This document shows, one piece after another, positions 1,655 to 33,641 of a stretch of DNA of 38,477 nucleotides. The stretch comes from a virus. Where the stretch lies: positions 1 to 38,477 of IMG/VR virus record IMGVR_UViG_3300020021_000028, one strand, 5' to 3'. Both the position numbers and the translations under genes were made by a program. Positions within the stretch are counted from its first letter, which is position 1, and each line of letters opens with the position of its first letter. Below the pieces are notes generated by a model. It had not been told where the DNA came from, ran no database searches, and saw only the letters and a program-made list of their open reading frames with translations.

Positions 1655-1902
1655 CACCGCACCGCGTCTTCGTGCTGGCGGCGCAGGATGTTGTAGGTGT
1701 CGTCAAGGAACTCCACCGCAGTCCGGATGTCCTCCGGGTCCGCCGGCCCGTACAGGGTCAGGCCCCCGTCTTTCAGGCCGTGTTCCAGGTACTCGCTCGC
1801 CACCCGGATTCCCTCGATCAGGCACTTCTGCCCGTACCGCTCCACCTCGGACAGCGCGGGCGCTTCCGGTGTCTCGTCTTTGACCTTGCTGAGATTGATC
1901 AT
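1654..1902 (-). CDS. Hypothetical acidic protein, 82 aa
   Basis: An 82-residue protein rich in Glu, Asp and Leu (MINLSKVKDETPEAPALSEV at the N-terminus, then helical segments ending HEDAVR). There are no cysteines arranged as a metal site and no membrane segment. The ATG at 1902 overlaps the helicase stop as ATGA, and its own stop touches the start of the small membrane protein, so translation is probably coupled along the operon. The family is not recognised; position suggests an early gene linked to DNA metabolism. Confidence 0.65.
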   Translation of the reverse strand: MINLSKVKDETPEAPALSEVERYGQKCLIEGIRVASEYLEHGLKDGGLTLYGPADPEDIRTAVEFLDDTYNILRRQHEDAVR

Positions 1903-3578
1903 GATCCAGTTCCTAGGTAAGGGTCGAAAACCCTGCTGGCCTTGTACGTGTCGATCAGGTCGGAGACCGCGCCCGCGTTCATCTCACCCGAGGTCTCGAT
2001 CCCCATGCGGCCTGCGAGACCGCGGGCCCGGTCGCTCGCAGGCTTCTTGCGCCATCGCGCGGACCGGTCCGCCAGGGAGGCGCCGACGTCCTCGGCCTCG
2101 GCCTCGGCCCACGTCATGGCGGTGTCCAGCTCCATCCCCGTGTACTGGGTGGGACGCCAGTGCAGCAGCTCCCCGTGCGGCCCGAAAGGAAGGACCCACA
2201 CATCGTGCAGGCCCGGTTCCCCGGCGGCCGGTGCCAGGAAAACGTACCCCGCCTCCCCGCACCCGATGAACCACACCCCGCCGGCCGTCCGGTTCCACGC
2301 GGACCGGGAGGACTGGAACAAATCGAACGACTCCTGCGCGGACCGGCGTACCCGGATCACCGCGGCCTGACCGTCCTTGGGGCAGGTGCACTCGGTCTTC
2401 ACAAGCAGTTTGCACTCCGGGCACAGGCACTCGCACGGCAGGCAAAGACAGTCCTTGCACGGCTTGGCCTGCGGCCAGAGCCCGTCTTCCAGGTCGATCA
2501 GCGACACCAGTTTGCTGTCGTCGCTGGCACCCACCACGTCGATGATCAGTGCGTCGGTCTTGCCCGGGAAGGGGCGCAGCACCCGGCCCACCATCTGCAC
2601 GTAGAGGGGGTTGGATTTGGTTGGCCGGAGCATGATCGCAGCCGACAGCCACGGTGCGTCGAACCCCTCCGTGAGCACCATGCAATTGCAGATCACCCGG
2701 ATCTTCCCTGCCTGGCTCGCGGCGTAGACCGCACGGCGCTGCTCCCGGGGCGTGCCGCCCGATACCGCGGCGGCAGGGATGCCCCTGGCGTTGAGCATCG
2801 CGGCCAGGTGCTCAGCGGTGGCCACGGTCGGGGTGAAGGCGATGCCGGTCCGGCCGGCTGCGTACTTCTCGTACGCGGTTACCGCCGCCTCCAGCGCGGT
2901 GCTGGACTCCAGCGCATCCCCGAGCGCGCCTTCCTGGAAGTCGCCACGGGAGTTCTTGAGGCCGTCCAGGTCCAGCCCCTCCACCGGGATGTTCCGGCCG
3001 CGGGGCTTGACCAGGAAGCCGTGTGCCACCGCGTAGGCGATGGACTTGGAGGACACCACGTCATCCCATACCGAGCCAAGACCGATCTTGTCCGAGCGCT
3101 CCATGGTCGCGGTGAAGCCGACGTGCAGCGCGTCCGGAGTGGCTGCGTAGATCCGCTGGTATGCGGGGGCTAGTGCGTGATGGCACTCGTCTGTGACCCA
3201 CAGGCCCGGGGCCCCGCGCCGGCTGGACAGAATCCGGTCCAGCCGGCCGGAGCGTGCCAGGGTCTGCACGCTGGCCACCACCACGTCGGCGTCCACGTCG
3301 TCTTCCCGGGCCTTCACCTTGCCGATGGCCAGGTGCGGGGCTACCGACTCCAGCTTGTGCAGCGCCTGGTCCGCCAGTTCGTCACGGTGGACCAGCACCA
3401 CGGACCGGCGGCCGGTGGACGCGTGCTGCTCCGCGATCATGTGCGAGAAGACCACGGTCTTGCCCATGCCGGTGGGGAGCACCACCGCCGGCCGCCGCAC
3501 TCCGGCCGCCCATGCGCCGGTCACCTTGTCGATGGCCTCGCGCTGGTACGGACGGAGGCTGAGCAAGTCGCGTGTCAC
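1899..3578 (-). CDS. Superfamily 2 DEAD/DEAH-type helicase with Cys-rich insertion, 559 aa
   Basis: An ATP-dependent SF2 helicase/translocase. Visible motifs are RPYQREAI (9-16), Walker A PTGMGKT (35-41), motif II DECH (130-133), motif III FTAT (155-158) and motif VI QMVGRVLRP (328-336). Directly after motif VI lies a cluster of nine cysteines (374-399, containing CKDC, CLPCECLCPEC and CTC), probably a zinc- or Fe-S-binding insert. The rest of the C-terminal third is unassigned. I chose the GTG at 3578 because it overlaps the upstream stop as GTGA and starts just before the first motif; an upstream ATG at 3737 would run through the neighbouring gene. Likely roles are in replication, recombination or repair alongside the downstream RecB-like nuclease. 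Confidence 0.93.
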   Translation of the reverse strand: MTRDLLSLRPYQREAIDKVTGAWAAGVRRPAVVLPTGMGKTVVFSHMIAEQHASTGRRSVVLVHRDELADQALHKLESVAPHLAIGKVKAREDDVDADVVVASVQTLARSGRLDRILSSRRGAPGLWVTDECHHALAPAYQRIYAATPDALHVGFTATMERSDKIGLGSVWDDVVSSKSIAYAVAHGFLVKPRGRNIPVEGLDLDGLKNSRGDFQEGALGDALESSTALEAAVTAYEKYAAGRTGIAFTPTVATAEHLAAMLNARGIPAAAVSGGTPREQRRAVYAASQAGKIRVICNCMVLTEGFDAPWLSAAIMLRPTKSNPLYVQMVGRVLRPFPGKTDALIIDVVGASDDSKLVSLIDLEDGLWPQAKPCKDCLCLPCECLCPECKLLVKTECTCPKDGQAAVIRVRRSAQESFDLFQSSRSAWNRTAGGVWFIGCGEAGYVFLAPAAGEPGLHDVWVLPFGPHGELLHWRPTQYTGMELDTAMTWAEAEAEDVGASLADRSARWRKKPASDRARGLAGRMGIETSGEMNAGAVSDLIDTYKASRVFDPYLGTGS

Positions 3579-3775
3579 TTCCGGGCACCTTTCAGTTTCA
3601 GATGGGCGGGGCAGACGTCCCGTCCGAGCTTGTCCCTGCGCCACCCGGACTTGTCGTGTGCGTCCCGGCGGAGGTATGCGGCGGTGGAGTGCAGACTGCT
3701 GCGGACGCTGGAGTCTTCCGGCGGGCACACGTCGCACACCAGCCGGGAGACTCCACCGCTCTTGGTGTAGCTCAC
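3575..3775 (-). CDS. Small zinc-binding (treble-clef-like) protein, 66 aa
   Basis: A basic 66-aa protein with CDVC at 14-17 and CPAH at 54-57, a spacing that suggests a single zinc-stabilised fold. The middle holds a Ser/Arg-rich helix. The GTG start at 3775 overlaps the upstream stop as GTGA, and the stop overlaps the helicase GTG in the same way. Both junctions therefore support the start and indicate coupled translation. It could bind DNA or be an adaptor for the helicase; neither is shown by the sequence. Confidence 0.7.
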   Translation of the reverse strand: MSYTKSGGVSRLVCDVCPPEDSSVRSSLHSTAAYLRRDAHDKSGWRRDKLGRDVCPAHLKLKGARK

Positions 3776-5506: not shown

Positions 5507-5755
5507 ATGGAAGAGAACTGGATCACCAAGACCGAGGCGGCTGCCCTGCTGGGCGCCTCGCTGCGCACCGTGGACAGGCTGGTGGCGGAAGGGGTCATCG
5601 CCTGCAAGAAGTACGGCGACCACCCGCGCGCTCCCGTGCGCGTGTCCCGCGCTGACACCGACCTGGTCAGGACCAGGCTGCCCCCGGACCGGGCCAAGCA
5701 CGGATGGATTCGGCACACCTCGGCCGTGCAGCCGGACGCGGGGGACCAGGCGTGA
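5507..5755 (+). CDS. MerR/excisionase-like HTH DNA-binding protein, 82 aa
   Basis: The N-terminus ITKTEAAALLGASLRTVDRL followed by VAEGVIACKKYG is a standard helix-turn-helix of the MerR/HTH_17 (excisionase-like) type, with a short wing. A basic tail follows. No integrase is visible, so it is more likely a transcriptional regulator than a true excisionase. Its start at 5507 lacks a ribosome-binding site but fits leaderless expression from the -10 at 5495-5500. It is the first rightward gene, and its stop overlaps the polymerase GTG (GTGA). It sits beside the shared CGTACGTCAA box, which makes it a good candidate for the protein that binds there. Confidence 0.8.
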   Translation: MEENWITKTEAAALLGASLRTVDRLVAEGVIACKKYGDHPRAPVRVSRADTDLVRTRLPPDRAKHGWIRHTSAVQPDAGDQA

Positions 5756-7494
5756 CCGGTGTCGTGTTCGACCTTGAGGGAGCGGACGCCGACCGGCTGT
5801 ACCGCGGCGGGCACGACGGCCCCTACATCCGGCTGACCGGGGCGGTCAACCCCGCGGGCGGGCCGGCCGAGGTGGGCACCGATCCTGAAGCGTTCGCGGC
5901 CAGGCTCGCCGCGGTGGACGGGCGCAGGATCGGGCACAACATTCTCAAGCACGACATCCCCGCGCTCGCGCGGCACCACGGGGGCGACTTCACCGCGCTG
6001 GCCCGGGGCGCGGTGGATACGCTGGTGGCCGCGAGGCTGGCCGATCCGCCCGGGGCAAAGGGTCAGAAGCCGTGGGGCGTACCGGGGTACTACGGCCTCG
6101 ATCAGGTGGCGCAGCGCTACGGGGTGGCCGGCTCCCGGGATGCTGCCAAAGGGGTGCTCGCCGACCTGGCCGCAGAATTCGGCGGGTACGACAAGATCCC
6201 CCAGGATGATGCGCGGTACCGGTCGTACCTGCGCGATGACCTGTCCGAGACAGAGGCCGTGTACCGGGCGCTGCTCCCCGTGATCGAGACTCCCTATGCG
6301 CAGCGTGAGATGCGAATCGTTGCCGTACAGCAACGGATGACTTTCAACGGGTGGCGCATTGACGTGCCCGAGCTGGCGGTCCGGGTCAAAGAGGAGGAGC
6401 GTCGCCAGGCCGAAGCACTGGAAGAGCTGCACGGCCTCGGCCTGCCCCGCACCACGGGCACCAAGCCGCTCGCCTCGGCCACGGGCAAGGAGTGGTTCGC
6501 CGCGGGGCTGGAACGGCTCGGTGTGCCGGTGCCGCGGACCCCTCCGACCAAGCGGTTCCCGGACGGGCAGCCGTCGGTGGCCGGAGACACGCTCAAGGAT
6601 CTGGCCAAGCGGACCGGTAGCCACCCGGTGCTGTCACAGGTGCTCGATCGCATGCTGATCGTGGCGGGCATCACCTCCAAGTACGCGGAGATCCAGCGGC
6701 ATCTGATCGGTGACCGGGTGCACGGCGGGATCGGGGCGGACCAGGCATCCGGCCGGTGGGCCATGACCAGGCCATCGCTCACCAACTTGGGCAAGCGCGG
6801 GGCTGAGAAGGTCGCGCAGCGCGGTCCCTTCCTCCCCGAGCACGGCCACGTCCTCATGACCTTCGACCTCGATCAGGTGGACATGCGCGCCATCGCGGCC
6901 CTGTCCCAGGACCCTGCCTACATGGCGCTTTTCGAGCCGGGCCAGGACGCGCACGCGATGATCGCGGACGCGGTCTTCGGCCGGCACGACGGCCCGTGGC
7001 GTGAGCGCTCCAAGCGGTGCGGGCACGGCTGGAACTACGGGATGGGGGTCAACGGCCTGATCCGCTCGGGCGTAGATCCGGAAGTAGCGCGTCAGTTCAA
7101 TCAGATGATGCTCGCCTCGTTCCCCGTGCTGTGCTCGGAGCGTGAGAAGTGGCGTGCCATCGCGGCGAGCGGAGCGTTGATGGACAACGGATTTGGCCGG
7201 AAGATGCGGCCCGACCCGGAGCGGTCCCACACCCAGGGGCCGGCGCTGATGGGGCAGGGCGGGGCCCGGGACATCATGTGCGAGGGACTGCTGCGGCTGG
7301 ACCCTGCGATCCACCCCATGCTGCGCGCCGTGGTCCATGACGAGATCGTGATGTCGGTCCCGATTAACCAGGTAAATGCGGTGCGCGAGCACGTGACCCA
7401 GGCCCTGACCTGGACATGGCGCGGTGTCCCGATCACGACCGGTGCGAGCCGGCCCGGGATCAACTGGGCTGACTGCTACGCGAAGGCGGCATGA
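5752..7494 (+). CDS. polA: Family A DNA polymerase (Pol I type), 580 aa
   Basis: Replicative phage polymerase. The N-terminus has a 3'-5' exonuclease-like domain with FDLEG (D7, E9) and GHNILKHD (61-68). The polymerase domain has motif A FDLDQVDMR (D372), motif B RSKRCGHGWNYG (419-430) and motif C VVHDE (527-531, D530 and E531). There is no 5'-3' flap nuclease domain, as usual for phage enzymes of about 600 aa. The GTG at 5752 overlaps the previous stop as GTGA and begins just before the first exonuclease motif; the upstream ATG at 5704 would lie inside the regulator gene. The downstream HTH gene overlaps its stop by four bases. Confidence 0.95.
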   Translation: MTGVVFDLEGADADRLYRGGHDGPYIRLTGAVNPAGGPAEVGTDPEAFAARLAAVDGRRIGHNILKHDIPALARHHGGDFTALARGAVDTLVAARLADPPGAKGQKPWGVPGYYGLDQVAQRYGVAGSRDAAKGVLADLAAEFGGYDKIPQDDARYRSYLRDDLSETEAVYRALLPVIETPYAQREMRIVAVQQRMTFNGWRIDVPELAVRVKEEERRQAEALEELHGLGLPRTTGTKPLASATGKEWFAAGLERLGVPVPRTPPTKRFPDGQPSVAGDTLKDLAKRTGSHPVLSQVLDRMLIVAGITSKYAEIQRHLIGDRVHGGIGADQASGRWAMTRPSLTNLGKRGAEKVAQRGPFLPEHGHVLMTFDLDQVDMRAIAALSQDPAYMALFEPGQDAHAMIADAVFGRHDGPWRERSKRCGHGWNYGMGVNGLIRSGVDPEVARQFNQMMLASFPVLCSEREKWRAIAASGALMDNGFGRKMRPDPERSHTQGPALMGQGGARDIMCEGLLRLDPAIHPMLRAVVHDEIVMSVPINQVNAVREHVTQALTWTWRGVPITTGASRPGINWADCYAKAA

Positions 7495-11149: not shown

Positions 11150-13450
11150 GTGTCCGTCACCCCTTTTTCACCCCCGGCCATGGAGCGGTTCGCCGCGGCC
11201 CTGGTCGCCGTCGGCTCGAAGTCGTCCAACGGGCGTGACTGGACCTGCCCGGCGCACGCCGACGTGGGGCCGTCCCTGTCCGTGAGCTACCGCGATGACC
11301 GGGTGCTGTTCAACTGCCACGCCGGCTGCCCCGGGTACGCCGTGCTCGCCGTGCTCGGACTGGAGGACGCCGACCTGAGCGACGCGGCCCCCGCAGTCGA
11401 GCCCGCCGCGGTGGTGCCCGCCGGCCCGCCCCCGTCGTGGGCGGCCAAGCCGCACGACACGATGCAGTACGGGTACACCGACGCGGCGGGCAAGCCGCTT
11501 TTCACCGTGCACCGCAGGGTGAAGGACGGCAAGAAGACCTTCCTCCAGCAGGCCGCGGACGGTACGTGGTCCATCAGGGGCATTGACCCCGTGCTGTTGG
11601 GTCTGCCCCGGGTGCTGGACACCGCGGCCCTGGGCGGCGCGGTGCACGTGGTGGAGGGGGAAAAGGACGCCACCGCCCTGTACCTGTCCGGCGAGGTGGG
11701 CACCTGCAATCCCGGGGGCGCCAAGAAGTGGCGGGATGCGCTGGCCGATGCGCTGGCCGGCTGCTCCGAGGTGGTCGTGTGGCGGGACAGGGATTGGATC
11801 AAGACCGGTGACGGGCCGGACGCGCGAACCCCGGGCGACACGTGGGCCCGCGCCGTGGTGGACTCCCTGGCACGCCGTGCCATCCCGTACCGGGTCGTTG
11901 AGGCGGCCGGCGGCAAAGACGCGTGGGACCACCTGGCCGGCGGCTACAGCCTGGCTCAGGCGGTGTCCGTCACACTGGACGGGGCGGGGGGCGCCGATCT
12001 GGAGGACACGGAGCTCATGCCTGCCAGCGACACGCCGATGCCGGTGGCACGCCGGCTCGAACAGGAGTGGCTGGACATCGCCACGGGCCTGCCGGTGCGG
12101 TACTACTGGCGGGGGTCGTGGCTGGTCTGGAAGGGCGCGCACTGGGCTGAGCAGGATGACGACAGCTTCCGGTCCGGTCTCTACCTTCGGATGGAGCACG
12201 CGGTGTACGAGAAGACCTCGGCCGCCGGCAGCGCGTCGCTGGTGAAGTGGAACCCGGGGCCGCGCACCATCGGCCCTGTGGAGGCCGCAGCGCGCGCCGT
12301 ACGGATGCTGGCACCCGAGGTGGAGGCGGGCAGCACCCTGGACCCTGACGAGGGTTGGACGCCCCCGCAGGGGGCCCGGGTGGCGTTCTCCAACGGCGTG
12401 CTTGACGTGGCCACCCGCAAGTTCACCGAGCCGTCCCCCGCCTACCTGAACACGTCCTCGGTGCCGTTCGCCTACGACCCCGCCGCGCCCGTGCCCGTGC
12501 GCTGGCTCGCCTTCCTCGGCCAGGTGATGCCCGGGGACGGCGAGGCGGTACAGCTGTTGCAGGAGTGGTTCGGGTACGTGCTCAGCGGCATGACCGACCA
12601 GCAGAAGATCCTGTATTTGCAAGGCGCGCCCCGGGGTGGCAAGGGTACGGTCGCCCGCATCCTCAAGCGCCTGGTCGGCGAGGTCAATTTCGTGGGCCCC
12701 ACCCTGGCCGGCATGTCCACTGACTTCGGCCTTGCTCCCATGATCGGGAAGTCACTGGCAGTGATCTCCGACATGCGCATGCCGGAGAGAAATGCTCAGC
12801 TCGTACTGGAGCGGCTGCTCTCGATCAGCGGCGAGGACACGCTGAGCGTCAACCGGAAGTACCGGGCCGACTGGAACGGCCAGCTCCCCGTCCGGCTGAT
12901 GTTCCTGTCCAACAACCTGCCCGCGTTCCGGGACGCGTCCGGCGCTTTTGCCTCCCGGCTGCTGCTCATCCGCATGCCGCAGTCCTTCCTGGGGCGCGAG
13001 GACCCAGGGCTTGAGGCCAGGCTCGCCACCGAGTTGCAGGGCATCCTGCTGTGGGCCCTGGAAGGGCTGGCCCGCCTGCGCGCCCGGGGGCACTTCGTGC
13101 AGCCTGCCACGTCGGTGGAGACCCTGGCCGCCGTGTCCGATGCGGGGAGCCCGCTGGGGGTCTTCCTGGCTACCCGCACGGTGCCCGACCCAGGCGGCGC
13201 GGTGTCCTGCAAGGCGCTGTTCGCCGCGTACCAGCAGTGGGGCACGGAGGAGAACGGCCAGAAGTGGACGGCCACCCAGACACAGCTGGGGCGCGAGATG
13301 GCCGAGCTGGGGTACGCACGGACCCAACGCCAGGTCTCCGGCCGGCGGGAAGGGGTCTATCCCGGGCTCGCGCTGGCACCCCTTCCCGGGGCAGCAGCGC
13401 CCGTGTTCACGGGGAGTAACCCGTTCGCTCCGGGCGGTAGTCCCGGGTAG
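11150..13450 (+). CDS. Primase/SF3 helicase fusion (D5/P4-type), 766 aa
   Basis: Replication initiator that primes and unwinds DNA. The N-terminus has a CHC2-like zinc site (C33, H36, C56, C60). A Toprim-like domain follows with VVEGEKD (167-173) and RDRD (D213, D215). The C-terminal half is a D5-type SF3 helicase with Walker A GAPRGGKGT (492-500), then AVISDMRMP (motif B) and LMFLSNNLP (motif C with sensor Asn). The GTG at 11150 is chosen by its position after the RHH gene and the weak AAAGGCGGGG upstream; ATG 11180 is an alternative that still keeps the zinc site. The iteron region lies immediately downstream, as expected for an initiator helicase next to its origin. Confidence 0.93.
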   Translation: MSVTPFSPPAMERFAAALVAVGSKSSNGRDWTCPAHADVGPSLSVSYRDDRVLFNCHAGCPGYAVLAVLGLEDADLSDAAPAVEPAAVVPAGPPPSWAAKPHDTMQYGYTDAAGKPLFTVHRRVKDGKKTFLQQAADGTWSIRGIDPVLLGLPRVLDTAALGGAVHVVEGEKDATALYLSGEVGTCNPGGAKKWRDALADALAGCSEVVVWRDRDWIKTGDGPDARTPGDTWARAVVDSLARRAIPYRVVEAAGGKDAWDHLAGGYSLAQAVSVTLDGAGGADLEDTELMPASDTPMPVARRLEQEWLDIATGLPVRYYWRGSWLVWKGAHWAEQDDDSFRSGLYLRMEHAVYEKTSAAGSASLVKWNPGPRTIGPVEAAARAVRMLAPEVEAGSTLDPDEGWTPPQGARVAFSNGVLDVATRKFTEPSPAYLNTSSVPFAYDPAAPVPVRWLAFLGQVMPGDGEAVQLLQEWFGYVLSGMTDQQKILYLQGAPRGGKGTVARILKRLVGEVNFVGPTLAGMSTDFGLAPMIGKSLAVISDMRMPERNAQLVLERLLSISGEDTLSVNRKYRADWNGQLPVRLMFLSNNLPAFRDASGAFASRLLLIRMPQSFLGREDPGLEARLATELQGILLWALEGLARLRARGHFVQPATSVETLAAVSDAGSPLGVFLATRTVPDPGGAVSCKALFAAYQQWGTEENGQKWTATQTQLGREMAELGYARTQRQVSGRREGVYPGLALAPLPGAAAPVFTGSNPFAPGGSPG

Positions 13451-13481
13451 CGGGAGTGCACGGGGTGCACGGGGTCCAAGG

Positions 13482-13520
13482 GCCGGTGCATGGGGTTGAA
13501 ATCAAACCCCGTGCACCGGC
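13482..13520 (+). terminator. Hairpin after the primase gene
   Basis: GCCGGTGCATGGGGTTGA and TCAAACCCCGTGCACCGGC pair almost completely round a 2-nt loop (one mismatch and one bulge), followed by TTTCTG. It could end primase transcription. Because its arms include GTGCAC/T sites, it may also be part of the iteron array. Confidence 0.5.
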
Positions 13521-13820
13521 TTTCTGCATGTCATCCCGGGTGTAGAGGCCCAAGTGCACGGGGTGCACGGGGTTGTGTAAGACCTTCCTACGCGCGCGAG
13601 GGAATAAGGACTATGAGCTATACCCCCATACATGCTCCGGAGAGCACACAGGGGGCACGCAACCCCGTGCACCCCATGCACTTGGGCCCTGACCTGCAAG
13701 GACCCTCGAAAAGTGCCCGTGCACTTGCCCGTGCACCTCCTCAAAACCCCGTGCACTTGCCCGTGCACTGCCCTGTTTGGGGGCACCCTTGACCCCCGAG
13801 CGGTCCGGCTCAGGTTCAGG

Positions 13821-13826
13821 TACGCT
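13821..13826 (+). promoter_or_regulatory. -10 element, probable leaderless start
   Basis: TACGCT lies 6 nt before the ATG at 13833, and there is no ribosome-binding site. No convincing -35 is seen at 17-18 bases, so an activator or the neighbouring iteron-binding protein may be needed. Confidence 0.4.
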
Positions 13827-13832
13827 GCGGGC

Positions 13833-14186
13833 ATGACGGATCTGACAGCACCACGGGGCCCCGCCCCGCTCTCCCGCGCGGCGGCGCGCCTCTGGCTTGC
13901 GGACCACTTCGCGGAGCACGGCCCGGAGATCCCGTGCTCGGACGTGATGGCAGCCGCGATCGCAGCCGGCCACTCCCGCTCCACCCTCAAGCGCGCATGG
14001 AGCCAGCTCGTGGCCGGCGGGGTGGCGGAGTCCTTCCGCGCCACCGGAGCGCTCCCTGTGACGGTCACTGTGTGGTCCTACCGCCCCCGGGTGGCCACCG
14101 CCGCCCCCTCCCCCGCCCCCGTGGCCGACCTCGGCCTGGTCGATCAGCCGTACCGCCCTTCCGGCACCCCGCGGTGGGACGTATGA
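13833..14186 (+). CDS. Winged-helix DNA-binding protein, 117 aa
   Basis: The segment LWLADHFAEHGPEIPCSDVM with AAAIAAGHSRSTLKRAWSQL and VAGGVAESF has the helix-turn-helix and wing pattern of small phage winged-helix proteins. A Pro/Ala-rich tail follows (ATAAPSPAPVADLG). Start ATG 13833 is preceded only by a -10 box at 6 nt spacing; a longer frame from 13632 would run through the iterons and is rejected. Being next to the iteron array, it is a candidate origin-binding or origin-regulating protein, though this is positional inference. Confidence 0.7.
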   Translation: MTDLTAPRGPAPLSRAAARLWLADHFAEHGPEIPCSDVMAAAIAAGHSRSTLKRAWSQLVAGGVAESFRATGALPVTVTVWSYRPRVATAAPSPAPVADLGLVDQPYRPSGTPRWDV

Positions 14187-14380: not shown

Positions 14381-14538
14381 TCGGGCCCGAGTTCGCCGGC
14401 CTGCTGGTCGCCCTGGTGGTCGTGCTGCTGATCATCCGGGCCCTGCACGAAGACCTCGCGCAGCGCATCGCCAACGAGGTTGCAGCCGTGCTGGAGCGCC
14501 GGGACCAGGCCCTGAGAGGGGATGATGATCATGGTTGA
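14377..14538 (+). CDS. Single-pass membrane protein, 53 aa
   Basis: The start is the GTG overlapping the previous stop (GTGA). One N-terminal hydrophobic helix (FAGLLVALVVVLLIIRAL) is followed by an amphipathic charged tail (ANEVAAVLERRDQALRGDDD). The end overlaps the terminase small subunit start. Function is not known. Confidence 0.6.
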   Translation: MIGPEFAGLLVALVVVLLIIRALHEDLAQRIANEVAAVLERRDQALRGDDDHG

Positions 14539-15091
14539 TTTGGGCGATTTGGACCCTGCCGGGGGTCAGACGTCCCGGGCTCCGGGTGCTGCGATCCCGA
14601 CCTCGGAGCGGGTCAGGAACGGGCGCGGGCAGTGGATCACGACCACGGACCAGGTCATGATCGACGCCGAGGCCGCGCGCCTGCGGTCCCGGTCCCTGAG
14701 CTATGCGCAGATCGCGGCCGAGATGGGATGCGGGGAGGAGACAGCCCGCGAACGGGTGGGGCGCGCGCTCGCGTCCATCACCCGGGAGCCGGCCGCCGAC
14801 CTGATCACGATGGAGCTGGCCAAGCTGGACCGCCTTGAGCGGTCCGTGATCAAGGTGCTGGAGTCTTTCCACTACGTGGTCAACGAAGGGCGCATCATCA
14901 AGCGCCGTGACCCTGCGTCACGGAAGATGGTCGAGCTGGAAGACGACGCCCCCGTACTGGCCGCGGCCAAGGTGCTCAAGGATCTGTCCGAGTCACGGCG
15001 CAAGCTGCTCGGGCTCGACTCCAGCACGAAGGTCAACGTGTCCGGCGGGGTCGTGTACCGCTTCGAGAACGTCTCGGATGAGGACCTGTGA
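14531..15091 (+). CDS. Terminase small subunit-like HTH protein, 186 aa
   Basis: Next but two to the large terminase subunit. It has an HTH (LSYAQIAAEMGCGEETARER with VGRAL), then a long helical region (MELAKLDRLERSVIKVLESF and EDDAPVLAAAKVLKDLSESR) typical of small terminase oligomers, and a C-terminal strand segment (VNVSGGVVYRFENV). It would recognise the packaging site. ATG 14531 has GAGAGGGG about 9 nt upstream; in-frame ATGs at 14522 and 14525 are alternatives. The stop overlaps the next start. Confidence 0.75.
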   Translation: MVDLGDLDPAGGQTSRAPGAAIPTSERVRNGRGQWITTTDQVMIDAEAARLRSRSLSYAQIAAEMGCGEETARERVGRALASITREPAADLITMELAKLDRLERSVIKVLESFHYVVNEGRIIKRRDPASRKMVELEDDAPVLAAAKVLKDLSESRRKLLGLDSSTKVNVSGGVVYRFENVSDEDL

Positions 15092-15348
15092 TGGGCAAGT
15101 CGCGAGTGGAGATCCACACGGACCCGGAGACGGGCCTGCCCAAGCTGTTCCTGGACGGGGCCGACATCGGCGCACAGGTGAACCGTGTCGAACTGATCGT
15201 CGGCCTCGGTGGGGACATCCGGGTATCGCTGCGCCTGCCCCGGGTGCTGCCCCTGGGTGTGAGCGTGGACGCCTCGGTGGGCGTGGACGCCAGCACCGCG
15301 GCGGCGCTGTCCCGGCTGGGCTGGACGCCCCCGGCGGCGGACTCATGA
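15088..15348 (+). CDS. Hypothetical protein, 86 aa
   Basis: Starts at GTG 15088 (overlapping the previous stop) or ATG 15091. The sequence is beta-rich (SRVEIHTDPETGLPKLFLDG, then VNRVELIVGLGGDIRVSLRL) with a Val/Ala C-terminus. It resembles short phage proteins that sit between terminase subunits, but I cannot name it. Coupled by overlaps on both sides. Confidence 0.6.
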   Translation: MMGKSRVEIHTDPETGLPKLFLDGADIGAQVNRVELIVGLGGDIRVSLRLPRVLPLGVSVDASVGVDASTAAALSRLGWTPPAADS

Positions 15349-15902
15349 CCCAGCGTGAGCAATCGGACTGGCGCGTCCAGCGCGCCCCGATGGACGCCCC
15401 GACCGGCTACCCCTGGCGGGTGCTGCACCCGGACGTGGTCCGCTCGTTCGCTACCCAGGGTGAGGCGTTCGAGTACGCCATGCGCCGGGCGGACAAGTGC
15501 ACCGTGTGCGGGAGCTGCGCCCACGACCACGGCGGCTGGTCGCACGCCTACACCCGGGCCAAGCGGGCCCGCGCCCGTACGGAGGACGTGAGCACCCTCA
15601 CCCAGGCCCCGGGTACGGTGCGCGCCGTGACGGACGTGCTGCTGCCCCACGGGTGCGGCGTGTGCGCGGGCATGATCGCGGGGTGGTGCGGCACGTGCGG
15701 CCGGCTGTGCACGCCGGAGCTGGACGCGGCGTCTGTGACGGTCCAGGTGCCGCACCACCCCGCCGCGGCCCGGTACGCGGACCTGGTCAGGCTGTACAAC
15801 GAGCTGGTGACGCCCCATGGCCTGGCTCCCATGGACCCGGCGCGCATCCTCGGCGCAGAGCGGGAGCCCCTGGCGTTCACGGACAGCGGTGACGTTACGT
15901 GA
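15345..15902 (+). CDS. Cys-rich zinc-binding protein, 185 aa
   Basis: ATG 15345 overlaps the previous stop as ATGA. Residues 47-60 hold CTVCGSCAHDHGGW and residues ~104-120 hold CGVCAGMIAGWCGTCGRLC, giving at least eight Cys plus His, enough for two zinc sites. The rest is mixed, with a helical C-terminus. Position just before the large terminase subunit suggests a packaging or DNA-binding accessory, but nothing in the sequence proves it. The last bases overlap the terminase GTG. Confidence 0.65.
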   Translation: MTQREQSDWRVQRAPMDAPTGYPWRVLHPDVVRSFATQGEAFEYAMRRADKCTVCGSCAHDHGGWSHAYTRAKRARARTEDVSTLTQAPGTVRAVTDVLLPHGCGVCAGMIAGWCGTCGRLCTPELDAASVTVQVPHHPAAARYADLVRLYNELVTPHGLAPMDPARILGAEREPLAFTDSGDVT

Positions 15903-17317
15903 CCATGGCCGCGCCCCCTGCCCCGGGTGCTGAGCAGGTCCACACCTTCAAGGCGCAGGGGGCCGCGGTCGATCTCTGGAAGGCCCGGGCCAACGAGGTG
16001 CTGATGTCGGGGCCGGCGGGCACCGGCAAGTCCCGGGCGTGTCTGGAGAAGCTGCACGCCCTCATGCTGAAGTACCCGGGTGCGCGCGGGCTGATGGTGC
16101 GCAAGACCCGGGAGTCCCTGACATCTACGGGCCTGGTCACGTTCCGTGAGAAGGTCGCGAACGAGGCGATCGATACCGGGCTGGTGGAGTGGTACGGCGG
16201 CAGCCATGAGGAGCCCCCGCAGTACCGGTACGGCAACAGCTCCAAGATCATGGTCGGGGGCATGGACAAGCCGACCAAGATTATGTCGTCCGAGTACGAC
16301 GTGATCTTCGTGCAGGAGGCTATCGAGCTGACCGTGACCGACTGGGAGAACCTGACCACGCGCCTGCGCAATGGCGTGGTGCGTACCATGCAGCTGATCG
16401 CGGACACCAACCCCGACCGGCCGCAGCACTGGCTGAAGCAGCGCGCGGACACCGGCGCCACGTCCCTGATCGAGTGCCGGCATGAGGACAACCCCATGCT
16501 GTACGACGCCGCTGCGCGGGACTGGACGGACGCGGGCCGCGTCTACATGGCCCGGCTGGGCGCGCTGACCGGGGTGCGCAAGGAGCGCTTGCTCAGGGGC
16601 CGGTGGGTCACGGCCGAGGGGCTGGTGTACGAGAACTGGGACCCATCGGTCCACCTGCTCCCGGCCATGCGCCGGCCGCCCAAGAGCTGGCCGGTCTTCT
16701 GGTCGATCGACTTCGGGTACACGAATCCTTTCGTGTGCCAGTGGTGGGCGCAGGACCCGGACGGCAGGCTGCACCTGTACCGGGAGCTTTACCGCACCAA
16801 GCGCCTGGTCGAAGATCACGCCAAGGACATCATGCGGCAGGTGGCCACCTGCAAGCGGCAGTGTGATCGCACGGACCGCGACCACTTCCCGCTCACCTGC
16901 GAGCGCTGTCAGGTGGTGTGGATGGAGGCCAGGCCCACCGCGATCATCTGCGATCATGACGCGGAGGACCGTGCCACGCTGACCAAGCACCTGCGGTTGC
17001 AGACTGTGCCCGCCAAGAAGACCAAGACCCGGGGCATCCAATGCGTAGAGTCACGGCTCAAGGTGCAGCCGGACGGGCACCCGCGGCTGTACATTCACAG
17101 GGACGCACTGACCGAGCGTGACGAGCTGCTGGAGGAGGCGAAGCTCCCGCTCTGCACGGAGCAGGAGATCGGCGGGTATGTGTGGCCGCCCGAGGCGGTG
17201 GCGGGCACGGCGCCCAAGGAGGAGCCGGTCAAGCGCGACGACCACGGCATGGACGGCATGAGATACATCGTGGCCCACCACGATCTCAAGGGGAGGTACG
17301 ACATCAAATGGCTGTGA
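15899..17317 (+). CDS. terL: Terminase large subunit, 472 aa
   Basis: The packaging motor and headful/cos nuclease. ATPase motifs: Walker A SGPAGTGKS (37-45) and Walker B YDVIFVQE (133-140, catalytic E140). RNase H-like nuclease motifs: WSIDFGY (D271) and IICDHDAED (D352, D354), with a final Asp-rich segment KRDDHGMDGM near the C-terminus. A Cys-rich patch (CKRQCDRTDRDHFPLTCERC, about residues 319-338) inserted between the nuclease motifs probably binds zinc. Start GTG 15899 overlaps the previous stop (GTGA); ATG 15905 is an alternative. Length is typical. Confidence 0.95.
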   Translation: MTMAAPPAPGAEQVHTFKAQGAAVDLWKARANEVLMSGPAGTGKSRACLEKLHALMLKYPGARGLMVRKTRESLTSTGLVTFREKVANEAIDTGLVEWYGGSHEEPPQYRYGNSSKIMVGGMDKPTKIMSSEYDVIFVQEAIELTVTDWENLTTRLRNGVVRTMQLIADTNPDRPQHWLKQRADTGATSLIECRHEDNPMLYDAAARDWTDAGRVYMARLGALTGVRKERLLRGRWVTAEGLVYENWDPSVHLLPAMRRPPKSWPVFWSIDFGYTNPFVCQWWAQDPDGRLHLYRELYRTKRLVEDHAKDIMRQVATCKRQCDRTDRDHFPLTCERCQVVWMEARPTAIICDHDAEDRATLTKHLRLQTVPAKKTKTRGIQCVESRLKVQPDGHPRLYIHRDALTERDELLEEAKLPLCTEQEIGGYVWPPEAVAGTAPKEEPVKRDDHGMDGMRYIVAHHDLKGRYDIKWL

Positions 17318-17583
17318 CCACCGACCGCCCCGCGATCGACCGCGGTACCCGCCCGTGGGGCAAGGCTGCCCCCACCCGGGCCAGGCTGCGGGCGCAGCTG
17401 TCCAGCGCCGGCCGCACGGTCCGCCAGCGCATCGTCAGTGCCCGGTCCGCCCTGCTGACCGTGACCGGGTTCGGCTGGATCGACGCAGCGGCCTGGCACA
17501 CCCTTGGCGCCGGGGCGGGGTTCCTGACCATCGGCGTATCGTTCCTGGTGATCGAGTTCCTGAGCCGGGAGGTCACCGCGTGA
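17308..17583 (+). CDS. Small membrane protein between terminase and portal, 91 aa
   Basis: ATG 17308 overlaps the terminase end by 10 bases and has GGGGAGG about 10 nt upstream. The N-terminal half is basic (TTDRPAIDRGTRPWGKAAPT, then RARLRAQL); the C-terminal half contains hydrophobic stretches (WHTLGAGAGFLTIGVSFLVI). A membrane location is likely. Similar small ORFs occur at this place in actinophages, but the function is not known. Confidence 0.6.
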   Translation: MAVTTDRPAIDRGTRPWGKAAPTRARLRAQLSSAGRTVRQRIVSARSALLTVTGFGWIDAAAWHTLGAGAGFLTIGVSFLVIEFLSREVTA

Positions 17584-19820
17584 GGTCACCGCTGCGCGCC
17601 GTGGTGGACCTGGTCCCGCGCGGCACGGCCAGGACGCCGGTGCCGATCCCCAGCCGCGCGCAGTCCGAGCGCTCGATCTTCTCGGGGACCAGCTCGCAGG
17701 CCACCTCGGCCATCGACGCCATGGGCTCGGTCGGCACCCTGTTCAACATCGTGAGCACCACGTCACAGGCTGTAGCCAAGGTGAAGTGGCAGCTGTGGCG
17801 CAGCGCCAAGAGCGGTGACCCCAAGGACCGGGTCCTGGTCGCGGACCACCAGGCACTGCGGGTGTGGAACAGGCCGAACGATTTCATGTCCGGTATGCGC
17901 TTCCGGGAGGCGCAGGCGCAGCACCTCAAGCTGACCGGCGAGGCGTGCTGGGTGGTGCAGCGGCAGGCCCCGGCCCCGTGGCCCATGGGCATGTGGCCGG
18001 TGCGACCGGACCGGATCACCCCGGTCCCCAGCGTAGAGACCTTCCTCGCCGGGTTCGTCTACACCAGCCCGGACGGGGAGCAGGTGCCGCTGGGGATCGA
18101 GGACGTGATCCGCCCCATGATGCCCAACCCCGCGGACCCCTACCGGGGCATGGGCGCGGTGCAGGCCATCCTCACCGACCTCGACAGCGAGCGGTACACG
18201 GCCGAGTGGAACCGGAACTTCTTCCGGAACTCGGCCACGCCCGGGGGCATCATCGAGGTGCCCGAGGGGCTTCAGGATGCGGACTTCCGCCGGTTGCAGC
18301 GGCGGTGGGCTGAGCAGCACCGCGGGGTGGCCGCTGCGCACCGGGTGGGCATCCTGGAAGCGGGCATGAAGTGGATCGACCGGTCCTTCAGTCAGCGCGA
18401 CATGCAGTTTGCTGAGCTCCGGCAGGTCGGGCAGGACGTCATCCGTGAGGCGTTCGGCTTCCCGGGTTTCGCCGCGGGCAAGGTCACGGACGTGAACAGG
18501 GCGACGGCCGAGGCGTCCGACTTGTGGTTCGACAAGCACCTGACCGTGCCGGACCTGGACCGGATCAGGGACGCGGCCAACTGTGAGTTCCTGCCGCTGT
18601 TCGGGCTGGCCGGGGCGGGGCTGGAATTCGACTACATCAGCCCCGTGCAGGGGGATGAGGAGCAGGACGCGGAGATCCTGGTGTCCCGCTCCAAAGCCCT
18701 GCACAACTTCACCCAGGCAGGCGTGTACGGGCCCGACGCCCTGGAACTGGCGGGCCTGCCGGGTGACGCCGACTTCGGCCAGCCGGGCGCGGACCCGGAC
18801 CGCATCCTGCTGACCTCGCTGGTCCAGGGCGCGCCGTCGCTGGCACCCATGATCCTGCCCGTGCTCATGCCGGGCGTGGACTGGTCGAACACCGCGCCGT
18901 CCATCACGCTGCCCCGGGCCCACCCCGGCGAGGTGGCACCCGGGGCAGCAGCCGTACCGGGCGCCCCGGTGCCCAAGGAGCTGGAGGCCGCGCCCAAGGA
19001 CCGGGGCGTGCACCTGATCACCAGCGCAGCGGACGGAGCACACCTGATGGGCTGCATGATCGCGCTGGTACCCAGCGCTCCGGACGCCGCGCGGATCGCG
19101 GTGCCCGGCGGGGAGCTGGCCGATGATCTTCACCTGACCCTGGCCTACCTGGGGCCGGACGCAGGCGACTGGTCGCCCAACGACACCCGCGGCGTGATCG
19201 ACGCCGTGCGCAGTTACGCTGCGTACCTGCCTACCGTGGACGCCAAGATCTTCGGCGCTGCGCTCTGGAACGCGGACACCGATAAACCCGCATGGGTCTG
19301 GAACGTGGGCGACTACGAAGCGGGCGGTGTCCTCACCCGGGCCCGCGCCACCGTGCTGGCCGGCGCGGAGGACGTGCTGTACGACCGGTTCCCGGTCCAG
19401 CGCACGCCCTGGGCGGCGCACGTCTGCGCGGCGTACAGCGCGGACCCTGCGCTGCTCCCCGTGCTGTCCGAGCGCATGGGCGCGCTGATCTTCGACCGGG
19501 TAAGGGTCACGTTCGGTGACCTGGTCACGGACATCATGATCGGCCCTGTCCCGGGCACCGAGCTCGATCCTTCCGTTGGCTACGACGACCACGGCGTGCC
19601 CGTGATCGAGGCGGCCATGCGCTGGGTGGTGAAGGCGCACAAGGATGACAGCACGTGCGCGCCGTGCCTGGCACAGGACGGGAAGCTGTACCGTAACCGT
19701 GAGTCAGCGTATGAGGACTACCCGGACGGCAAGTCCTACGTCAACTGCGTAGGCGCCAAGTACGGCAACGACTGCAGGTGCACCGTGGTCAAGCGCGGGC
19801 GCAAGGGAGGCGGGGAGTAG
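17580..19820 (+). CDS. Portal protein fused to 2H phosphoesterase-like domain and MuF-type tail, 746 aa
   Basis: Residues 1-~460 are an HK97-type portal (VGTLFNIVSTTSQAVAKVKW, SERYTAEWNRNFFRNSATPG, VTDVNRATAEASD), the dodecameric ring through which DNA enters and leaves the head. Residues ~480-660 carry a 2H phosphoesterase-like domain with LHLTLAYLG (H518, T520) and WAAHVCAAY (H614, C616). Two HxT/S-type motifs about 95 residues apart define that superfamily; the second has Cys in place of Ser/Thr. Residues ~685-746 look like the C-terminal part of MuF proteins: DDSTCAPCLAQDGK (C693, C696) and NDCRCTVV (C732, C734). GTG 17580 overlaps the previous stop. It is several hundred residues longer than a simple portal, and the ring would present twelve copies of each extra domain. 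Confidence 0.85.
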   Translation: MRSPLRAVVDLVPRGTARTPVPIPSRAQSERSIFSGTSSQATSAIDAMGSVGTLFNIVSTTSQAVAKVKWQLWRSAKSGDPKDRVLVADHQALRVWNRPNDFMSGMRFREAQAQHLKLTGEACWVVQRQAPAPWPMGMWPVRPDRITPVPSVETFLAGFVYTSPDGEQVPLGIEDVIRPMMPNPADPYRGMGAVQAILTDLDSERYTAEWNRNFFRNSATPGGIIEVPEGLQDADFRRLQRRWAEQHRGVAAAHRVGILEAGMKWIDRSFSQRDMQFAELRQVGQDVIREAFGFPGFAAGKVTDVNRATAEASDLWFDKHLTVPDLDRIRDAANCEFLPLFGLAGAGLEFDYISPVQGDEEQDAEILVSRSKALHNFTQAGVYGPDALELAGLPGDADFGQPGADPDRILLTSLVQGAPSLAPMILPVLMPGVDWSNTAPSITLPRAHPGEVAPGAAAVPGAPVPKELEAAPKDRGVHLITSAADGAHLMGCMIALVPSAPDAARIAVPGGELADDLHLTLAYLGPDAGDWSPNDTRGVIDAVRSYAAYLPTVDAKIFGAALWNADTDKPAWVWNVGDYEAGGVLTRARATVLAGAEDVLYDRFPVQRTPWAAHVCAAYSADPALLPVLSERMGALIFDRVRVTFGDLVTDIMIGPVPGTELDPSVGYDDHGVPVIEAAMRWVVKAHKDDSTCAPCLAQDGKLYRNRESAYEDYPDGKSYVNCVGAKYGNDCRCTVVKRGRKGGGE

Positions 19821-30855: not shown

Positions 30856-33641
30856 TGGCCGGGCGATTCGCACCCAGCGTGCAGCTACAGATCAACGGGG
30901 TCTGGACCGACGTGACGTCCCGGGTCCGCGGCGCCATCGATGTGGAGTACGGGATCAAGGCGTCGGGCGGGAAGATCGCGGACCCTGCCAGTTGTTCGAT
31001 GACGCTGGAGAACAATGACGGGGCCCTGTCCATCCGCAACCCCCTGTCGCCGTACTACCCGTGGCTGGGGGTCAACACCCCGATCAGGGTGGGGCAGGCC
31101 GTCATCGGGGCCGCCCCGTGGCTGGACATGCCCAACGGGAGCACCGGCCGCGCAAGCACCCCGGACGCGGCGGTGCTCGACATCACGGGGGACCTGGACC
31201 TTCGTGCGGATATCGAGTGCGCCGTGTGGGGTGACGCGGTCGATTCCAACCTGGGCGCTCAGGAGATCATGGGCAAGTCCACGGCGGTGGGGTCGCAGAA
31301 GTCCTGGCTCTTCCTCGTCACCTCGGACGGGGGTCTGAAGCTGTTCTGGTCCGCGGACGGGAGTACTGACCTGGGGGTCGCGTCCGTCGCGGTGGGCCAG
31401 GTGCCCGGTGCCCGGCTCAGTGTCCGGGTCACGCTTGACGTGGACAATGGCTCCAGCGGCTGGACGGCTACTTTCTACACCAGCACCACGCCGGGCACTT
31501 CAGGCCCCTGGACGATGCTCGGTACGCCGATCACTGTCGCGGGCATCACCTCGATCTTCAACAGCACGACGGCCGTCCACGTGGGGGACGTGGCCACGGT
31601 TGGTTTCGGGAACCTGGCAAGGAAGATCTTCAAGGCCGAGGTGCGGTCCGGGATCGGCGGGACGATCGTGGCCAACCCCGACTTCACCGCGCAGGCCCTG
31701 GGCGCCACCAGCTTCGCGGACACCGCCCCGTCCGCGCGCACCTGGACCGTCACGGCCGGCGCGGTGACCAACGTCTACCGGCGGTTCACCGGCCAGGTCA
31801 GCGAGTATCCGCCGACCTGGGACACGGGCGGCCAGGACGTCACGGTGCCCATCGTGGCGGCCAGTGCGCTGGACCGGTACAGCCGGTCGCGTACGGTCCT
31901 GTCGTCCACGCTCCGGCGCAGGATCGCGTCCTACTTCGGCCCCGCAGGCCCGAACACCTTGATCGCGTACTGGCCGTGCGAGGACGGGGCGGACGCCACG
32001 ACGGCCATGTCCCCTATCCCGGGTGTGGCGCCCATGACCACGTCCGGGGTCACGTTCGCCTCGGACAGCACCCTGCCCGGGTCGTCTCCGCTGCCCGTGC
32101 TCGGCACGGACAGCTCCACCTCGGAGGGGGCGGTGCCTTTCGCTGCACCCGGGCAGTGGGATGTCGAGCTGGTATACAAGATCCCTGCCGTCCCCCCGAG
32201 CAATTCAGCATTCTTCTATATCAATTCGTCTACAGGCACATGGCGCATCGCCATCGATTCCACGCTTATCCACGTAGACGTTTTCGATACCACGGGCACT
32301 TCCGTGTACAGCCTTGCCGGGATAACCAACCTCGGATTCACCGGGGCGTGGACGCACTTCAATTTCCAGACGCAGACGTCCGGATCGAACACGTCCTATC
32401 ACATGGGGTGGGTCGTGACCGGGGGCGGCGGGTTCTTCTGGGAAGACACGGTCACCGGCATTCTTCCGGGCCGGGTTACCAGCGTGGTGCAGTCCCATGG
32501 CGGCACGCTGGGGCAGATGTCTTTCGGGCACATCGCGGTCTTCAACGCCTACAACCTCGGCAACGCCGCGTTCTCAGGGGCCGACACGGGATTCAATCTG
32601 GAAAGGTCCACTGCCCGCGTCGTCCGCCTCGCCAAGGAGCAGGTGATTCCCATGTCCATCGTGGGCGCGGCGGGGGACGGGGTCCAGATGGGGCCGCAGC
32701 CGATAGACACCGTGATCAATACCCTGACCGACGCGGTACTTGCGGAGGAGACTTTCCTGTACGAGGCGCGGGATTTCGCGGGGCTCCGCTTCCGGAACCT
32801 CAACTCGATCTACGCGCAGCCGTCCATGCTCGATCTGCCGTACCGGTCCGGGTCCGGGAAGCAGATGATCGTCGCGCCGTTCAAGCCCGTGGGCGACTTG
32901 CAGAACGTGGTCAACGACAGCACGGTGACCATGGCCAACGGCACCTCCGCCCGGGTGCAGGTGACCACCGGACGCCTGTCCGTGCAGGAGGCGCCCAACG
33001 GGATCGGCACCGGCTACGCGGAGAACATCCCTGAGAACCTGGGCTACGCCAGCGACACCGCCGACCATGCCGGGTGGAGATCTTTTGTCGGCACCTTCGA
33101 CGCCGACCGGTACCCGAGTATCAGTCTCCGGCTGGAAAAGGATCTGACCCGGGTGCCGGACGTGGCGCGCCTAGACGTGACCCACCGGCTCAGGGTGCTG
33201 GCTCCGCTCCTCAGCCAGATGGCGCCCACCACCGTGGACCAGATGCTGCTGGGGTACTCCGAGCAGCTCGATCAGTTCTCATGGCTGTGGACGGGCGCCT
33301 GTCAGCCGCACGGGCCGTACGGGTCGGTACTCCGCTACGACGACGCGGTGGCCAAGTACGACGCCCCGAGCTGTACCCTGTCCGCCGGCATGACCACCAC
33401 GGCGACCTCCGCATCGGTGGTGCACGCCTACGACGCGGACCGGTGGGCGGACAGCGCGACCTACCCGGGGGACTTCCCTTTCAGCGTGGTCATAGCCGGC
33501 GAGGTCTGCACGTGCACCGCAGTCACGGGCACTACCGCGGTGCAGACCATGACGCTGACACGCAGCGTTAACGGCATCATCAAGGCGCAGGTCACCGGGG
33601 AACCCGTGCACCTCGCAGCCCCCAGCGTCTACGGATTGTGA
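30855..33641 (+). CDS. Minor tail protein with LamG/concanavalin-like domains, 928 aa
   Basis: Starts at ATG 30855 directly on the tape measure stop. The N-terminus (FAPSVQLQINGVWTDVTSRV, then GIKASGGKIADPASCSMTLE) is the usual distal-tail/baseplate entry domain. Residues ~100-290 and ~400-580 look like two jelly-roll (LamG/concanavalin) modules, of the kind that bind sugars on the host surface. The C-terminal ~280 residues return to a tail-associated fold (DVARLDVTHRLRVLAPLLSQ). Bases ~32190-32650 are noticeably AT-richer than the flanks, suggesting an exchanged receptor-binding module. Confidence 0.8.
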   Translation: MAGRFAPSVQLQINGVWTDVTSRVRGAIDVEYGIKASGGKIADPASCSMTLENNDGALSIRNPLSPYYPWLGVNTPIRVGQAVIGAAPWLDMPNGSTGRASTPDAAVLDITGDLDLRADIECAVWGDAVDSNLGAQEIMGKSTAVGSQKSWLFLVTSDGGLKLFWSADGSTDLGVASVAVGQVPGARLSVRVTLDVDNGSSGWTATFYTSTTPGTSGPWTMLGTPITVAGITSIFNSTTAVHVGDVATVGFGNLARKIFKAEVRSGIGGTIVANPDFTAQALGATSFADTAPSARTWTVTAGAVTNVYRRFTGQVSEYPPTWDTGGQDVTVPIVAASALDRYSRSRTVLSSTLRRRIASYFGPAGPNTLIAYWPCEDGADATTAMSPIPGVAPMTTSGVTFASDSTLPGSSPLPVLGTDSSTSEGAVPFAAPGQWDVELVYKIPAVPPSNSAFFYINSSTGTWRIAIDSTLIHVDVFDTTGTSVYSLAGITNLGFTGAWTHFNFQTQTSGSNTSYHMGWVVTGGGGFFWEDTVTGILPGRVTSVVQSHGGTLGQMSFGHIAVFNAYNLGNAAFSGADTGFNLERSTARVVRLAKEQVIPMSIVGAAGDGVQMGPQPIDTVINTLTDAVLAEETFLYEARDFAGLRFRNLNSIYAQPSMLDLPYRSGSGKQMIVAPFKPVGDLQNVVNDSTVTMANGTSARVQVTTGRLSVQEAPNGIGTGYAENIPENLGYASDTADHAGWRSFVGTFDADRYPSISLRLEKDLTRVPDVARLDVTHRLRVLAPLLSQMAPTTVDQMLLGYSEQLDQFSWLWTGACQPHGPYGSVLRYDDAVAKYDAPSCTLSAGMTTTATSASVVHAYDADRWADSATYPGDFPFSVVIAGEVCTCTAVTGTTAVQTMTLTRSVNGIIKAQVTGEPVHLAAPSVYGL

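Follow-up and report, generated by a model that had tools for sequence, protein, structure and literature searches.

The question raised by this locus is what function is served by a dense array of GTGCAC words lying between two genes of a viral contig, and which protein reads it. The window is the whole stretch of DNA analyzed here, 38,477 nt (positions 1 to 38,477 of IMG/VR record IMGVR_UViG_3300020021_000028), and the array occupies a non-coding region (13451-13832) that runs from the stop codon of a gene for a primase/D5-type (SF3) helicase to the gene at 13833. A preliminary description had placed it between a primase/SF3 helicase and a winged-helix gene, and on one side there is a gene with D5_N and DUF5906 domains, on the other a putative HTH gene (Table 1). 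Based on comparison of related loci and on structure prediction, we propose that the array is very probably the replication origin of the phage and that its initiator is the primase-helicase encoded immediately upstream.

Structure of the iteron array

The ten exact GTGCAC sites reported earlier lie at 13456-13768, within 313 bp, and the two one-base variants are GTGCAT at 13486 and ATGCAC at 13676; four further one-mismatch hexamers in the array look like chance. The array is real and far beyond chance, as the maximum count per 315 bp is 10 in the window, whereas 100 dinucleotide-shuffled versions of the full window never exceeded 4, and the 382-bp region shuffled 1000 times gave a mean of 0.33 and a maximum of 4. 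The window as a whole shows no enrichment of GTGCAC (27 copies versus 21 expected), and the point of the signal is therefore its clustering. The reading of GTGCAC as a restriction site was set aside since relatives keep the geometry with other words.

The iteron unit is a directional 9-mer, GTGCACGGG, consisting of GTGCAC plus flank, a feature missing from the preliminary description. Twelve iterons (≤1 mismatch) are present in the orientation + + + -, + +, - -, - - - -, at 5+, 14+, 35+, 57-, 103+, 112+, 213-, 222-, 265-, 277-, 297-, and 309- relative to the primase stop. With that stop at 13450 and the first iteron at 13456, the array is directly 3' of the initiator primase-helicase gene. The direct repeats reverse across the center as had been described, the inner pairs being inverted on either side of it, and this gives the two-sided symmetry sought as a mark of the SaPI/PICI type: + +, a center of 92 bp with 57% GC, then - -. 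The AT-richer 86-bp center defined earlier (13575-13660) has 58% GC, compared with 64% for the 382 bp and 69% for the window, and only 0.33% of window positions are predicted, from nearest-neighbor energies, to be weaker than the weakest 40-bp stretch of the 92-bp center. The 27/28 inverted repeat (13547-13574/13661-13688) was recovered and extends to 32 nt at 94%, and the repeats at 13456/13554 and 13716/13748 (a 21-mer) are exact; the inverted repeats at both lengths and the two exact repeats are explained by the arrangement of the iterons. The hairpin on the left side, also absent from the preliminary description, is made of two iterons (+ at 13486, - at 13508).

Table 1. Features of the array and of the genes around it (positions in the window)
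Feature	Position	Strand	Basis or remark
Family A DNA polymerase	5704-7494		upstream of primase
Primase-helicase gene, 766 aa	11150..13450	+	D5_N, DUF5906 (SF3 helicase), C-terminal winged helix
C-terminal winged-helix domain, proposed iteron-binding	13148..13390	+	AlphaFold2 model, pLDDT 79.9
Outer left iterons 1-2, GTGCACGGG x2, 9 bp apart	13456..13473	+	
Hairpin, 16-nt arms (13482-13497/13505-13520), 7-nt loop	13482..13520	.	inverted-repeat scan
GCATGTCA, left copy of non-iteron motif GCAGGTCA, one base off	13526..13533	+	read from sequence
Inner left iteron pair, + +, 9 bp apart (13554/13563)	13554..13571	+	
Weaker-paired center, proposed unwinding region, 92 bp	13572..13663	.	57% GC vs window 69%
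Inner right iteron pair, - -, 9 bp apart (13664/13673)	13664..13681	-	
TGACCTGC, right copy of non-iteron motif GCAGGTCA, inverted	13690..13697	.	read from sequence
Outer right iterons 13716, 13728, 13748, 13760, all -; 21-mer repeat	13716..13768	-	
Small putative HTH DNA-binding gene, 117 aa	13833..14186	+	single weak match, PHROG 10342 'DNA binding protein', E 6.4e-4
TerL	15899-17317		downstream; starts ~2.1 kb after array

Promoter and terminator scans found neither in the array, all Rfam matches were far below the family cut-offs, and the tRNA search found none; an RNA element as the main function of the array was rejected. A GC-skew peak had been suggested as a check on the origin, and the computed skew has no extremum at the array and is uninformative.

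A sister contig and the genes next to the array

The closest comparison is provided by contig L004 (the same contig as L085 and L188, one contig under three labels), which has the gene order of the window, a primase that is 64% identical, and a TerL that is 71% identical. The corresponding position holds an array whose iteron, GCTCCTAGC, is quite unlike that of the window, with copies at 24+, 36+, 47+, 68-, 117+, 126+, 217-, 226-, 274+, and 304- relative to the primase stop. Its inverted repeat is 22 nt long with 80 nt between the arms, compared with 32 nt and 78 nt in the window, and the iteron hairpin with 16-nt arms is also there (6867-6904). The word has changed, and the layout is largely kept. 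A search of related phages for the motif at this position, suggested earlier as a check, finds the array and its layout in L004 with another iteron.

The gene downstream of the array has a detectable homologue in one of the 161 loci scanned, that on the L004 contig (33% identical). This bears on whether the repeats are operators to which the small HTH protein binds to control transcription of its own gene or of the primase. The array lies directly upstream of that gene, its palindromic repeats would suit a dimeric repressor, and the gene is kept in L004, but its restriction to that contig among the loci scanned, the different genes that follow the arrays 3' of other primases (an integrase in L269, for example), and a scan limited to sigma-70-like promoters that found none in 13400-13900 all argue against control of transcription. 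We regard the operator as very unlikely and have rejected it as the main function, given the single homologue and the arrays that stand before other genes. The small HTH gene is not needed in the origin model, and since among the loci scanned it has a homologue only at L004 and many loci have arrays without it, the likely binder is a domain of the primase rather than the 13833-14186 protein.

Further downstream the gene order is a gene in the TerS position, TerL, portal, and major head protein, with the terminase genes at 14522-17317. The gene at 14522-15091 matches PHROG 645 'RNase E', yet it occupies the TerS position before TerL in many relatives, and it may be a small terminase misnamed in PHROG. 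The 821-aa portal protein (17355-19820) is a portal fusion in which residues 556-722 match PHROGs named 'RNA ligase' and head maturation protease. On the minus strand, opposite to the replication and capsid genes, 1899-3737 encodes a 612-aa helicase (ResIII, Helicase_C).

Distribution of the array geometry

An alignment search yielded 80 viral primase loci, 79 of them with enough downstream sequence. An array, called when the 9-mer array score was at least 6 and above five shuffles, lies 3' of the primase in 34 of the 79, a count that includes near-identical records, while a score of 6 was reached in 2/79 upstream and 4/78 downstream control stretches. The inner geometry was searched with 8-mers using a template (two copies 8-11 bp apart, a gap of 50-120 bp, two inverted copies 8-11 bp apart) that had been set from arrays seen earlier. 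It is present just 3' of the primase in 29 of the 79 loci, near-identical records again included, and in none of the controls (upstream 0/79, downstream 0/79, shuffles 0/237), which together with the layout kept in L004 supports the earlier reading of the array as a likely replication origin. The association of array and primase is common and not universal, as 45 of the 79 loci fall short of the array threshold, and no array is seen in L185-L187, three cultured phages whose primases are distant.

Removal of similar arrays left 29 distinct ones, including those of the window, L154, and L030. A center could be defined in 23 of these 29, with six, L154 among them, giving none by the automatic rule and the automatic center being doubtful in L252, L258, L262, and L266 (gaps of 41-44 bp). 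All 23 centers are below the GC content of their locus (mean -0.20), and because high-GC genomes tend toward lower GC outside genes, these low-GC centers are supportive only. In L030 the geometry first reported lies elsewhere in the 4 kb, and the primase-adjacent array, to which the iteron AGGGTGCA was assigned by hand, fits too; the same locus has ten TCCGGA words within 400 bp from 4402, apart from the primase-adjacent array.

The geometry is also found on two circular plasmids, L269 and L270 (Streptomyces virginiae and Pseudonocardia), 3' of a P4-family primase or DNA primase family gene, their annotated replication genes being a prim-pol and a primase of this kind; a third circular plasmid, L271 (Thermaerobacter), has no array. 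L269 and L270 carry terminase, integrase, and primase genes together with the array, and from this gene content they look like phage satellites maintained as plasmids. At the Streptomyces genome loci that have no related TerL or portal, the arrays come directly after the primase stop, and one such locus, L107, is an element with TraB/FtsK, excisionase, and integrase as read from its frames. The Streptomyces arrays are often more compact (four iterons, short spacer), and a long weak center is therefore not universal.

Because the terminase genes lie close by, a cos or pac packaging site was also considered. TerL begins about 2.1 kb downstream of the array, and the linear genome of phage Dagobah opens with a 1187-bp repeat about 1.8 kb upstream of its TerL. 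However, in the 51 TerL loci (window included) for which 2.5 kb or more of preceding sequence was available, the geometry is present in three of the four that have a primase relative within 5.5 kb and in two of the 47 that have none. The 80 genome-contig primase loci L090-L169, among which arrays are numerous, yielded no relative of the window TerL or portal at E 1e-5. The geometry goes with the primase and not with the terminase, and the packaging site, which we consider extremely unlikely, was rejected.

Other searches added no relatives: the exact 20-mer search of viral contigs and the DNA similarity search in phages returned nothing, and neither the primase nor the small HTH protein, each used as a single query, gave a confirmed viral relative. 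The pattern CCCGTGCAC-N(0-6)-CCCGTGCAC matched 15 viral stretches, and in no case did the surrounding DNA that was examined hold a primase relative; one of them, L178, is a low-complexity GTGCAC-rich region.

A second, non-iteron motif is placed within the arrays. GCAGGTCA (or GCWGSTCA) and its inverse sit between the outer and inner iteron sets in many arrays that have different iterons, with copies at 6911-6918 and 7079-7086 in L004 and in the arrays of L107, L141, L269, and L270, and in some arrays the motif is reversed. The motif was defined post hoc, after looking at the arrays; exact sharing extends to seven arrays versus a shuffle maximum of six, and the wider pattern to 19 arrays versus 5 and 2 in control stretches (29 loci). 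As a shared array element the motif is only suggestive, and a conserved factor or the primase could possibly bind it.

The primase-helicase and its C-terminal domain

The gene preceding the array matches D5_N (2.3e-10) and DUF5906 (2.6e-13) in Pfam and DNA primase in PHROG (2.9e-89). Its N-terminus reads as a putative TOPRIM-type primase with a zinc element, the corresponding Pfam matches all being below the cut-off (Zn_ribbon_DnaG, E 0.19; Toprim_3, E 0.036 in L004). A structure model of residues 290-766 has a mean pLDDT of 81.7, and the solved structure that matches it best is the SaPI5 primase-helicase 7ola_D (Z 27.0, rmsd 3.7, 330 aligned). A second SaPI5 structure, 7om0_D (Z 26.8, rmsd 6.0, 386 aligned), covers model residues 2-455 with the C-terminal domain included, and poxvirus D5/E5 and ASFV PrimPol come next. 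The model thus predicts the SaPI Rep/D5 helicase fold followed by a C-terminal DNA-binding domain, as sought for the SaPI/PICI type. The C-terminal domain alone is nearest to the AsfvPrimPol C-terminus (Z 10.1) and RFX DNA-binding domains (Z 9.3/9.1); the P4 origin-binding domain 1ka8 ranks below these with Z 7.6 (rmsd 3.1, 79 residues), a score that ordinary winged helices also reach. RFX recognizes DNA chiefly with its wing.

The iteron binder is likely the primase-helicase's own C-terminal winged-helix domain, and related loci allow this to be compared with iteron identity. For 40 Streptomyces loci placed in three iteron classes that were defined with the data already in view (of 79 primases, 39 belonged to none of the classes and were left out), nearest-neighbor class agreement is 39/40 for the C-terminal domain and 30/40 for the helicase region, and the class changes eight times on the helicase tree versus twice, the minimum, on the C-terminal tree. 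The 20 most class-informative columns include 17 from the C-terminal domain, though this accounts for only 68 of 460 columns; nine of the 17 fall in columns 910-924, where the strands and turn of the wing are predicted, and six are in the loose tail after the domain. The A5 row set consisted of 23 of the 25 listed references plus the window (L157 and L104 left out) and the A6 row set of 39 of the 41 listed references (L146 and L090 left out). The Streptomyces covariation fits iteron recognition by the wing, and since the codons of the C-terminal domain adjoin the array, joint transfer by recombination could mimic recognition. Over 37 viral loci iteron distance is correlated to a similar degree with the C-terminal domain (0.55) and with the helicase region (0.52). 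L192 and L154 differ by 33% in their helicase regions and by 75% in their C-terminal domains and have unrelated iterons, a pattern that looks like exchange of a specificity module. L164 and L165 are identical in the helicase part and differ in the iteron; both are fragments of one draft assembly and may share an assembly node.

Relation to known origins

The preliminary description knew of no described origin with this iteron; no second occurrence of the iteron array came to light, but the kind of origin is known from P4, SaPIs/PICIs, and SCCmec Cch2 with its putative origin. SaPI Rep and Cch2 are described as initiator helicases in which the C-terminal domain reads iterons directly downstream of the gene (PMC7581432), and in SaPI/PICI elements the origin is directly 3' of the initiator gene, with two iteron sets around an AT-richer center (PMC7581432, PMC6092414). 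The window resembles this arrangement in the place of its origin candidate 3' of the initiator, the two iteron sets, the AT-richer center, and a putative C-terminal binder, and SaPI5 is the best match of its primase model. Unlike these satellites, the element has its own terminase, portal, and capsid genes, its DNA is high-GC, and its iterons number about twelve and have a palindromic core; its N-terminus reads TOPRIM-like, whereas the SaPI5 primase is described as AEP-type (PMC7581432). Cch2, as described there, belongs to the D5 helicase family and uses its C-terminal domain to bind direct repeats that closely follow its gene (PMC7581432). The window parallels this with repeats just after a D5-family helicase gene; Cch2 differs in having three AAGTG iterons, with no two-sided symmetric array described in the sections cited here (PMC7581432). 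The archaeal plasmid pRN1 is described as needing the region directly downstream of its replication gene, which holds a stem-loop and not iterons (PMC4234260). A survey of AICEs names prim-pol-associated replication proteins, and the word 'iteron' is absent from its main text (PMC3218068). No report of such an origin type in actinophages was found in the open-access literature searched.

Phage P4 is the comparison that supplies an alternative. In its record crr follows the alpha primase gene immediately on the 3' side, with type 1 repeats partly 9 bp apart, and the window likewise has short iterons, partly 9 bp apart, directly 3' of a gene for a primase-helicase with a predicted C-terminal winged helix; in P4 alpha, also a primase-helicase, the C-terminal winged helix binds the origin. 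The annotated P4 origin is separate, with more type 1 repeats kilobases away, and the window array could in the same way be an auxiliary region required in cis, bound by the primase while synthesis begins at an origin elsewhere. P4 crr, however, is built of two direct repeats of 120 bp each, and the window showed no second array: the one exact GTGCACGGG outside the array is at 33603, and no second cluster of exact copies is seen. The array also has its own weaker-paired center, as PICI origins are described to have (PMC6092414). We consider an auxiliary region unlikely, and the window array is, with high probability, a primase-adjacent iteron origin of the P4/SaPI-PICI kind.

Proposed mechanism and implications

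In the mechanism that we propose for this primase-adjacent origin, the C-terminal winged helix of the primase-helicase would bind the iterons, and the two inverted inner pairs would position two helicase rings facing the weaker-paired center. The center would melt, the SF3 helicase would unwind in both directions, and the attached primase would start synthesis, with extension probably carried out by the family A DNA polymerase of the phage. The roles of the outer iterons and of the hairpin made of iterons may be to load additional protein, to keep copy number in check, or to terminate transcription of the primase gene.

What appears to be new here is how far this kind of origin extends, the conservation of spacing while the iteron words change, and a hint of parallel change in the initiator wing. 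The P4/SaPI-PICI design would be extended to a phage contig that encodes packaging and capsid functions of its own, and the relatives would carry it further, to integrative elements and plasmids. We put forward, as a hypothesis with about equal chances of being right or wrong, that a single origin design is common to tailed phages, integrative elements of Streptomyces, and small plasmids, namely an iteron skeleton of near-fixed spacing 3' of a D5-type primase-helicase, in which the iteron and the C-terminal wing change together as an exchangeable specificity module, giving rise to many mutually blind replication groups. Since the relatives form a natural series of iteron/initiator pairs with conserved geometry, a change of DNA specificity by the initiator is directly testable. 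The geometry would also provide a practical rule for finding origins in uncultured phages, in that the DNA immediately 3' of a D5-type primase gene could be searched for two iteron pairs that face each other at a distance of about 75-90 bp.
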